Under the pieces are notes generated by a model. It saw only the letters and a program-made list of their open reading frames with translations. It did no database searches and had not been told where the DNA came from. The position numbers and the translations under genes were made by a program. Positions 1 to 17,877 of a DNA stretch of 64,000 nt are shown here, piece after piece. This DNA is from Paenibacillus sp. FSL R7-0204. Lineage in GTDB: Bacteria > Bacillota > Bacilli > Paenibacillales > Paenibacillaceae. Each line of letters opens with the position of its first letter. The stretch's first letter is position 1. The DNA is taken from NCBI RefSeq assembly GCF_038002225.1, contig NZ_JBBOCA010000001.1, positions 2,976,001-3,040,000 on the forward strand. The letters are read 5' to 3'.

Positions 1-707
1 TAGAGGCAGCCTCCTCCTTACTGTTCGAGAATGCGTATTACGTGCTCACGCCCCCGCCAGGCGTACCTGAAGCGGCATACCAGGCTCTGGAGTCGCTCCT
101 GCTACATACGAGAGCACAGATTGTCCGGCTTGATCCGGAGCGCCACGATGAGATTGTTGGAGCGATCAGCCATCTGCCGCATATTATTGCGGTAGCCCTG
201 GTGAATCAGATTCATGCATATGACCATTCGGACTCCTTATACAGCACGCTGGCTGCGGGGGGCTTCCGTGATATTACCCGCATTGCTTCGAGCGATCCGA
301 TCATCTGGCGCGATATTCTGCTGAATAACCGCTCTGTGATGCTGCGGCTGCTGAAGGATTGGAACGATGAGGTGTCCTCGTTCATACATCTGCTGGAGAG
401 CGGGGATGGTGCAGGGATCGAGTCGGCCTTCCAGGAGGCGAATCAATTCCGCAGCCAGCTTCCTGAGCGGCGTAAGGGAATGATCACTCCGCTGTTCGAT
501 CTGCATATTGATGTTCCCGATCACCCCGGCATTATCGGCCGAATTGCTACGGAGCTGGGTGACCAGGGTATCAACCTTAGTAACGTGCAGATTATTGAGA
601 GCCGCGAGGATGTCCCCGGGATCATGCGCTTATCCTTTCGCCAGGAGAATGACATGGAGCGGGCCAGAATTCTGCTGCAGGAGAATGATTATACCGTATA
701 TATGTAA
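1..707 (+). CDS. tyrA: Prephenate dehydrogenase, 3' part (5' end outside window)
   Basis: Oxidises prephenate to 4-hydroxyphenylpyruvate in tyrosine synthesis. The open frame enters from the left edge (first full codon at 3) and has no start here. The visible part begins with the family-typical LLFENAYYVLTP segment that follows the catalytic Rossmann core. It continues through the helical dimerisation region (HLPHIIAVALVNQ) and ends in an ACT domain over about the last 70 residues (FDLHIDVPDHPGIIGRIATE). A C-terminal ACT domain is usual for Firmicute TyrA and is the likely tyrosine feedback site. A strong hairpin terminator follows directly. Confidence 0.93.
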   Translation, partial: EAASSLLFENAYYVLTPPPGVPEAAYQALESLLLHTRAQIVRLDPERHDEIVGAISHLPHIIAVALVNQIHAYDHSDSLYSTLAAGGFRDITRIASSDPIIWRDILLNNRSVMLRLLKDWNDEVSSFIHLLESGDGAGIESAFQEANQFRSQLPERRKGMITPLFDLHIDVPDHPGIIGRIATELGDQGINLSNVQIIESREDVPGIMRLSFRQENDMERARILLQENDYTVYM

Positions 708-937: not shown

Positions 938-1030
938 AAAAAAAAGACCGCTTACATTATAAGCGGTTACAGTTCACAATCTCTTGGAACCGTGTAGTGT
1001 TTGGATAGGAGTGGAGAGAAACCATACTGT
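938..1030 (-). ncRNA. Candidate small regulatory RNA with anti-Shine-Dalgarno-like seed
   Basis: A complete stand-alone transcription unit is visible on the minus strand. A consensus sigma-A promoter at 1037-1065 predicts a start near 1030. A rho-independent terminator (ACCGCTTA / TAAGCGGT stem, 946-968) is followed by eight U at 945-938. The predicted RNA is about 93 nt. Its 5' part is single-stranded and C/U-rich (minus strand of 1003-1019, UCUCUCCACUCC type), complementary to GGAG-type ribosome binding sites. A second hairpin, ACGGUUC / GAACUGU, comes from 969-993. It encodes no protein. This architecture matches trans-acting C-rich sRNAs such as FsrA or RoxS, but I do not recognise the sequence. 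Confidence 0.72.
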
Positions 1031-1036
1031 ACTTTT

Positions 1037-1065
1037 ATTATATGTATCCGTTTACATTTTGTCAA
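1037..1065 (-). promoter_or_regulatory. Sigma-A promoter of the small RNA
   Basis: On the minus strand, TTGACA (1065-1060), a 17 bp spacer, and TATAAT (1042-1037). Both hexamers match the consensus perfectly, making this one of the strongest promoters in the window. Confidence 0.85.
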
Positions 1066-1444: not shown

Positions 1445-2032
1445 ATGACGGATTCCCAGTTGATCCAGCTAATCAAGCAAGGTGATACAGAATTATACTC
1501 GGAACTCATGCGACGATATCAACGCAAGATATTGGCGTTTGTGTACCACATGCTGAAGAACTCCCATATGGAGCTGATTGCCGAAGACCTCTGTTCAGAG
1601 ACCTTCTACAAAGCCTTCCGGAGTCTTCATTCCTTCCGGGAAGTGGATGCTTCTTTCTCCACATGGCTGTACACGATTGCCCGCAATACAGTGCTGAGCG
1701 AACTTCGTAAGAACCGTGCCGGGAATGTGTCGCTTGAAGAGAGCGGCTATACGCCTGTGGCACCGCTTGATGTTGCCCCGGAACAGGCAGCATTGCGTAA
1801 GGAACGGATGGAACTTGTCCGCGAAGCGATTAACAATCTCCCGGAGAAGCAGCGTTCCGCGCTGATTCTGCGTGAATATGATCAGATGGATTACCAGGAA
1901 ATTGCCGTGATTCTGGAGCAGAGCGTCAGCTCAGTGAAGTCACTGCTGTTCCGGGCTAGGAGCAGTGTGAAGCTGCAGCTCGAATCCTATTTCTATGAGC
2001 CTGAAGTTGAAGAGCAGGCTGAGAGGGTGTAA
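1445..2032 (+). CDS. ECF-family RNA polymerase sigma factor (SigW/SigM-like)
   Basis: Alternative sigma factor of 195 residues, the normal ECF size. Sigma-2 covers about residues 20-90, with the core-binding and -10 recognition helices (AEDLCSETFYKAFR, FSTWLYTIARN). Sigma-4 covers about 130-182 (LPEKQRSALILREYDQMDYQEIA followed by the HTH helix SVSSVKSLLFRAR), which reads the -35 element. The gene for a zinc-finger anti-sigma factor follows after 5 nt, so the pair forms the usual stress-release switch. The GCAACTTTT promoter block upstream recurs before two cell-wall amidases, suggesting an envelope-stress role. Which Bacillus ECF factor it matches cannot be settled from sequence alone. Confidence 0.92.
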   Translation: MTDSQLIQLIKQGDTELYSELMRRYQRKILAFVYHMLKNSHMELIAEDLCSETFYKAFRSLHSFREVDASFSTWLYTIARNTVLSELRKNRAGNVSLEESGYTPVAPLDVAPEQAALRKERMELVREAINNLPEKQRSALILREYDQMDYQEIAVILEQSVSSVKSLLFRARSSVKLQLESYFYEPEVEEQAERV

Positions 2033-17673: not shown

Positions 17674-17877
17674 GTGCTCATGAGGCGGCATCGCATGGCG
17701 AGCTGTACTCACGTAATTGTTTTCTTTGTTTTACCGGATGTACCTTCATAACTGGATGTAACGGTTACGTTGGATTCTGCTCTGAGCCGTAAGGACCGAG
17801 ACAGAAGGGACGATCGCGAGTGACTCTTTTTTGCCCTTCGGACCTTTTTAGCGGACCATGCTAAAAGGTTTTTTTGT
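17674..17877 (+). promoter_or_regulatory. panB leader with an internal intrinsic terminator (putative attenuator or riboregulator)
   Basis: Between the promoter-like TATACT and the panB start lies a GC-balanced leader ending in a strong terminator. The stem is CCTTTTTAGC / GCTAAAAGG around GGACCAT, followed by TTTTTTTG (about 17845-17877), only about 48 nt before panB. A terminator there implies conditional read-through. The pan RNA motif is known upstream of Firmicute panB operons, and this leader is a candidate, but I could not confirm its conserved bulged adenosines by eye. Confidence 0.5.

Follow-up and report, generated by a model that had tools for sequence, protein, structure and literature searches.

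The minus strand of the window, the 64,000-nucleotide stretch of Paenibacillus DNA analyzed here, carries what is, judging by sequence comparison, a real and very conserved small RNA (sRNA) gene, with its expression as a prediction. The product is probably a stand-alone, trans-acting sRNA that is controlled by CcpA, carries an anti-Shine-Dalgarno seed and fills the niche of RsaE/RoxS. In the Paenibacillus order, CcpA would bind a cre box between the -35 and -10 hexamers and shut the promoter when a preferred sugar is present, so that the RNA would be made under sugar shortage. Through its unpaired UUUCUCUCCACUCCU block it would then base-pair with several mRNAs at AGGAGUGGAGAGAAA-like ribosome-binding sites and stop their translation, and its hairpins would serve for termination and protection. 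The literature searched, most of which was available without full text, yielded neither a description of this RNA nor any publication combining RsaE, RoxS and Paenibacillus.

Anatomy of the RNA gene

The gene and its neighbors in the window consist of the following features.

3..707, plus: tyrA (prephenate dehydrogenase), 3' part; the usual neighbor, convergent with the RNA here
938..1031, minus: predicted small RNA of about 93 nt, from promoter and terminator positions and fold
938..945, minus: terminator U tract, eight T, from the sequence
947..967, minus: terminator stem-loop, a stem followed by C and eight T; pair changes in alignment A3
969..993, minus: first hairpin, from the predicted fold and compensatory changes
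1003..1028, minus: near-invariant 5' block AGTATGGTTTCTCTCCACTCCTATCC, 26 nt, from order-wide conservation
1007..1021, minus: class-wide core TTTCTCTCCACTCCT, 15 nt, predicted anti-Shine-Dalgarno seed; exact in class genomes and predicted unpaired
1037..1042, minus: -10 hexamer TATAAT, promoter match
1041..1057, minus: predicted CcpA cre box ATGTAAACGGATACATA in the promoter spacer, perfect match
1060..1065, minus: -35 hexamer TTGACA, 17-bp spacer to the -10 hexamer
1445..2032, plus: ECF sigma factor gene; divergent neighbor, not part of the RNA gene

A preliminary description of this DNA had proposed a perfect sigma-A promoter on the minus strand, and TTGACA, the 17-bp spacer and TATAAT are all present: 12 of 12 hexamer positions match, at the only such site in 3 kb. 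The terminator said to follow it is there as a stem with eight U, at a distance of about 70 nt and not 60. The RNA 5' end at 1031 is placed by its spacing from the -10 hexamer. Folding of the 93-nt RNA gives a minimum free energy of -22.6 kcal/mol against a shuffled mean of -14.1 (z = -3.0), and bears out the RNA of about 93 nt that had been described, with a largely open, C/U-rich 5' part, then a hairpin, then the terminator. The interval had been called free of open reading frames; it holds one ATG frame of 22 codons (1025-957), whose start would lie some 5 nt into the predicted RNA and which is not conserved as a reading frame. The gene thus has the marks of a base-pairing sRNA, namely a promoter and a terminator of its own and no conserved reading frame. 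Its location between tyrA, which is convergent, and the ECF sigma gene, which is divergent, was likewise given correctly.

Two other elements were observed in the window. Just upstream of the sRNA promoter, a second terminator-like site (1104-1086, minus) has the AAGCGGTCTT letters of the sRNA terminator and is possibly the remnant of a duplicated copy. At 17682-17808 (plus), an Rfam pan motif (36.9 bits, gathering threshold 36.2) sits upstream of the reading frames at 17874 and 18724, which look by eye like panB and panC.

Conservation in the order and the class

The 26-nt block was found, with up to three mismatches, in 388 of 392 genomes of the order, one copy in each, and all but three of the matches listed are exact. 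Because the reversed block gave no match in the same 392 genomes, chance does not account for this conservation. The four genomes lacking a match are G046 (which has a diverged copy), G062 (a 1.4-Mb genome), G071 (81% complete) and G180. A DNA search of 60 genomes, the window's own and its relatives, recovered the RNA gene in all 60, G046 giving a weak match (locus L060, the diverged copy); TTGACA is present in 58 of the 60 order loci, and one of the two misses is N-masked (L022). Promoter, seed and terminator are therefore all kept in related genomes, as the preliminary description had asked to be checked, and its reading of a stand-alone sRNA with an unpaired anti-Shine-Dalgarno C/U seed is supported and fits the conservation observed. 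For the RNA in these 388 genomes, a regulator, a seed and targets can be named as candidates.

The spread of the gene through the class Bacilli, and its usual place behind aromatic amino acid genes, had not been noted in the preliminary description. The exact 15-nt core occurs in 190 of 398 class genomes, the reversed word in three. By eye, each of 39 class loci from outside the order combines the core with a stretch that resembles a promoter and an end that resembles a terminator; loci were viewed in about half of the 30 core-bearing families, and elsewhere presence rests on the exact word. A 16-mer of the block is absent from all 164 genomes outside the class (the search covered 169 genomes, five of which belong to the class, four of these five matching). 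A 21-nt version matched 110 stretches in a named collection, including Aneurinibacillus, Shouchella clausii, Halalkalibacterium halodurans, Alkalihalophilus pseudofirmus, Fictibacillus, Marinococcus, Melghirimyces and Kroppenstedtia. One exact match (L246) comes from a metagenome bin labelled Spirosoma, which belongs to another phylum, and is likely contamination or mislabelling. No family of Rfam 15 matches the RNA. The gene is spread class-wide, with its letters almost unchanged in many Bacilli, and is probably controlled by sugar.

Two core matches are present in 16 of the 398 class genomes, and in six of these the additional match is a second copy of the RNA (L127/L128 in G433, L135/L136 in G622, L455 in G590, L456 in G558, L457 in G529, and one in G539). 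L135 consists of hardly more than block and terminator, and in one family the second copy starts with TCAGG, not TATGG, ahead of an identical core.

Gene neighborhood and fold

The anatomy of the gene was compared across 209 loci, seven of which repeat another locus: 60 from the order, 19 from group f16, 20 from a mixed class set and 110 from the named collection. In 187 of them tyrA, aroA or hisC lies within 1.5 kb (51/60, 19/19, 15/20 and 102/110, respectively), these genes having been named through one NCBIfam-identified representative each. The aromatic gene is upstream and co-oriented in 138 of the 187, and the unit is inverted in the other 49, the window included; among the order loci, inversion relative to tyrA occurs in 19 of 60 with the parts kept. 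In many Bacilli loci (L130, L153 and similar; cluster 2) the next gene encodes a protein of about 290 amino acids, and the single one tested has no Pfam match.

The core is predicted to be unpaired at a probability of at least 0.7 in 205 of 208 RNAs (group means 0.84 to 0.94). On the 3' side of the block the sequence varies and pairing is kept. RNAalifold gave no useful structure for a 52-row alignment because the hairpins do not align, and two subsets were therefore aligned. Among 18 close relatives, a G-C to A-U exchange is seen in the first hairpin, 99.1% of cells pair, and the covariation score is 0.120 against 0.096 in shuffled alignments. For 25 more distant RNAs (alignment A3) it is 0.194 against 0.102, and five terminator pairs are altered on both sides (27 cells versus 9.1 in shuffles). 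Neither score was reached by any of 500 shuffles, although kinship inflates both.

These data bear on two other ways of reading the locus. The block contains an ATG at the same place in 184 of the 208 RNAs, from which a tiny peptide (MVSLHSYP...) might be encoded. However, the frame closes inside the RNA in 93 of the 184 and runs past its end in 91, the lengths are very mixed, and every base of the block is near-invariant, wobble positions too. Group f16 lacks the ATG in 19 of 19 RNAs and keeps the C/U core, and the ATG of the window, so close to the predicted start, has no preceding Shine-Dalgarno sequence. Since the ATG defines no conserved frame, the peptide reading was rejected and retains only a very slight probability. 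The RNA could instead serve the next gene, which is co-oriented in many genomes, as leader or attenuator; yet that gene differs from clade to clade, and in 49 of the 209 loci the RNA unit faces the 3' end of tyrA, aroA or hisC. A leader role was rejected because of this variable and variably oriented neighborhood, and is highly improbable. An independent sRNA gene is thus the preferred reading.

Predicted control by CcpA

The cre box in the promoter spacer had gone unmentioned in the preliminary description. The site at 1057-1041, scored against the cre consensus, is the only perfect match in the 64 kb, where 0.06 would be expected. An exact 14-base cre lies in the promoter at 59 of the 60 order loci (expected 0.15), the exception being the N-masked L022. 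When one mismatch is permitted, the promoter contains a cre in 19 of 19 f16 loci (expected 0.20) and in 23 of the 110 named-collection loci (expected 0.80). In the latter set the transcribed part contains one in 89 (expected 2.2), and 68 of these 89 fall within the last predicted hairpin. The mixed class set (n = 20) has three in the promoter and 10 in the transcribed part (expected 0.25 and 0.50). Counting both places and permitting one mismatch, a cre is present at 183 of the 209 loci; the other 26, including those of Aneurinibacillus, Melghirimyces, Kroppenstedtia and f58, have none at this threshold. A predicted CcpA site is therefore usual and not universal, and its position appears to have moved. 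The placement of the cre suggests repression by CcpA.

The terminator stem-loop itself contains a cre-like palindrome in L129-L139 and many of L143-L250, and one stretch may serve there as both CcpA site and terminator. If true, this would be an unusual regulatory site, one that has moved and apparently kept its job.

Distribution relative to RsaE/RoxS

The RF01820 covariance model (RsaE/RoxS) has a match in 112 of the 398 class genomes, 82 of them over the cut-off, and so in only part of the class. It has none in the window, in the window's own genome or in any of the 190 core-bearing genomes, and a comparison by hand of the same 398 genomes found none with both RsaE/RoxS and the core. By family (n = 59), 17 have RsaE, 30 the core, none both and 12 neither. 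Fisher's test gives p = 5e-41 by genome and 2e-7 by family, both ignoring kinship, so that the real independence is far lower, and a single ancient event, or a few, may lie behind the non-overlap. The RF01820 search, run with stricter filters, and the word search for the core differ in kind, and weak copies of either may be missed. The earlier comparison of the RNA with RsaE/RoxS is strengthened by this distribution. Given the cre sites, and given that the two RNAs were never found together in the sampled genomes, the new RNA may do the job of RsaE/RoxS where RsaE is missing.

A wider scheme can be put forward tentatively, with the balance slightly against it. Bacilli would be split between two non-overlapping metabolic master sRNAs, the redox-controlled RsaE/RoxS and the CcpA-controlled new RNA, each post-transcriptionally steering carbon flow; the CcpA site would have moved from the promoter, its place in the Paenibacillus order, to the terminator stem-loop in other families, with control kept. 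Two testable questions are raised: what replaces RsaE/RoxS in Bacilli that do without it, and by which route carbon-catabolite control reaches translation there.

Candidate targets

The preliminary description had suggested comparing the seed with start-codon regions. Exact complements of the core stand ahead of a start codon in seven genomes and are absent from the window genome, where the sole exact core match is the RNA itself and wobble matches number 193 against 181 for a reversed control. These seven come from eight class genomes that have one further listed core match other than a second RNA copy; the remaining two of the 16 two-match genomes, G490 and G523, are without listed places. 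The complements cover the ribosome-binding site of an acyl-CoA dehydrogenase gene in three genomes of one genus (AGGAGTGGAGAGAAATG) and of a HAD hydrolase gene in two genomes of another, and one lies at the start of metH in a single genome. In G094, of the window's genus, the site AGGAGTGGAGAGAAACCATG is complementary over 19 nt (-36.9 kcal/mol) and belongs to a PTS lactose/cellobiose IIA gene, which seems to open a lactose/cellobiose PTS operon; such a target would agree with the predicted control by CcpA as well as with the proposed RsaE/RoxS niche. The eighth match, in G105, has an equally strong predicted duplex (-36.7) and no reading frame with a start codon after it.

An identical search of the 208 class genomes without the core word found no exact start-codon site, versus 7 of the 190 carriers (p = 0.005, ignoring kinship and the larger genomes of the carriers). 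The seven sites represent four independent genes, and by a rough estimate purine-rich ribosome-binding sites could yield several exact complements by chance. Because the genes are so few, gene starts are purine-rich and the window genome has no exact site, we regard these genes as candidates. Across 15 genomes there are 80 occurrences of GGAGTGGAGA with an ATG in the next 12 bases, against 34 for a permuted and 19 for a reversed word; one of the 80 is the RNA's own complement, a few sites were counted with two ATGs, and a single permuted control is thin. Searches for seed complements returned scattered genes, with no target conserved across the group; galE, the names being read by eye, came up in two of 15 genomes, about chance level by a rough estimate.

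The gene sucC is a confirmed RoxS target. Its sites were compared between 46 genomes with the new RNA and those with RsaE (28 of 30 loci usable). The two groups are alike in their complementarity to the new seed (means -15.8 and -15.2, p = 0.62), sites in genomes lacking RsaE are less complementary to the RsaE segment (p = 0.002), and the relative preference shifts between the groups (p = 1.7e-5, kinship ignored). The sequence GATAGGAG, found in 19 of 46 and 7 of 28 sites, respectively, is to some extent common to sucC sites at large. In the window genome the sucC site is weak (-11.8), and sucC as a target there is not supported.

Two further explanations accept the RNA and question its function or its origin. 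The C/U block might mainly be a protein-binding or decoy site, with an RNA chaperone, a G-rich sponge RNA or the ribosome as its partner, and not an mRNA seed: it is conserved order-wide, exceeds in length and invariance what a seed for many targets requires, and has no group-wide conserved target among those searched. Against this stand the exact core complements over ribosome-binding sites in seven genomes and the excess of the shorter complement ahead of ATG over one permuted word, and we consider such a function improbable. That the RNA is a diverged RsaE/RoxS, and not an unrelated replacement, is somewhat less improbable, though still unlikely. The non-overlapping distribution would agree with divergence, as would the resemblance of UUUCUCCCAUCCCC in RsaE to UUUCUCUCCACUCCU, but likeness between two short C/U-rich stretches is weak evidence. 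Moreover, the stricter RF01820 search detected no RsaE in the core-bearing genomes, and no shared neighbor gene was seen at four RsaE loci, all from one family. Membership in any Rfam family was rejected for want of a match. A CcpA-controlled anti-Shine-Dalgarno sRNA, distinct from RsaE, remains the best explanation.

Comparison with known small RNAs

The known sRNAs are compared here as described in passages from PMC8216469, PMC8464778, PMC6435200, PMC5419742 and PMC9217828. FsrA, compared by description only, is also small (84 nt) and acts by inhibiting translation, as is predicted for the new RNA, but is under Fur/iron control. SR1 is repressed on glycolytic carbon, partly by CcpA, a trait that is predicted for the new RNA; unlike it, SR1 is 205 nt long and codes for SR1P, whereas the new RNA has no conserved frame. 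RosA of Bacillus subtilis is stand-alone and CcpA-repressed, again a property predicted here, yet it is a G-rich sponge of RoxS and FsrA with species of 92-225 nt, and so of opposite base composition. RsaI (RsaOG) of Staphylococcus is CcpA-regulated, as the new RNA is predicted to be, and uses a C-rich region for mRNAs (PMC8216469). It differs in having two G-rich regions that bind RsaE, its Rfam family does not match the new RNA, and the passage from PMC8216469 describes it as conserved in Staphylococcus and not in Bacilli.

The closest likeness is to RsaE/RoxS (RF01820), which those passages present as a Bacilli sRNA of central metabolism with a terminator and an open C-rich region, UUUCUCCCAUCCCC, that acts on ribosome-binding sites. 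An open C-rich anti-Shine-Dalgarno region of this type is present, predicted unpaired, in the new RNA, as a single 5' block, whereas RoxS has four C-rich regions. RoxS is under ResD/Rex control and the new RNA has cre boxes; the new RNA also sits behind aro genes and is unmatched by RF01820. On these features it is an RNA predicted to work like a C-rich anti-Shine-Dalgarno sRNA that, by the Rfam test, stands outside the RsaE family.
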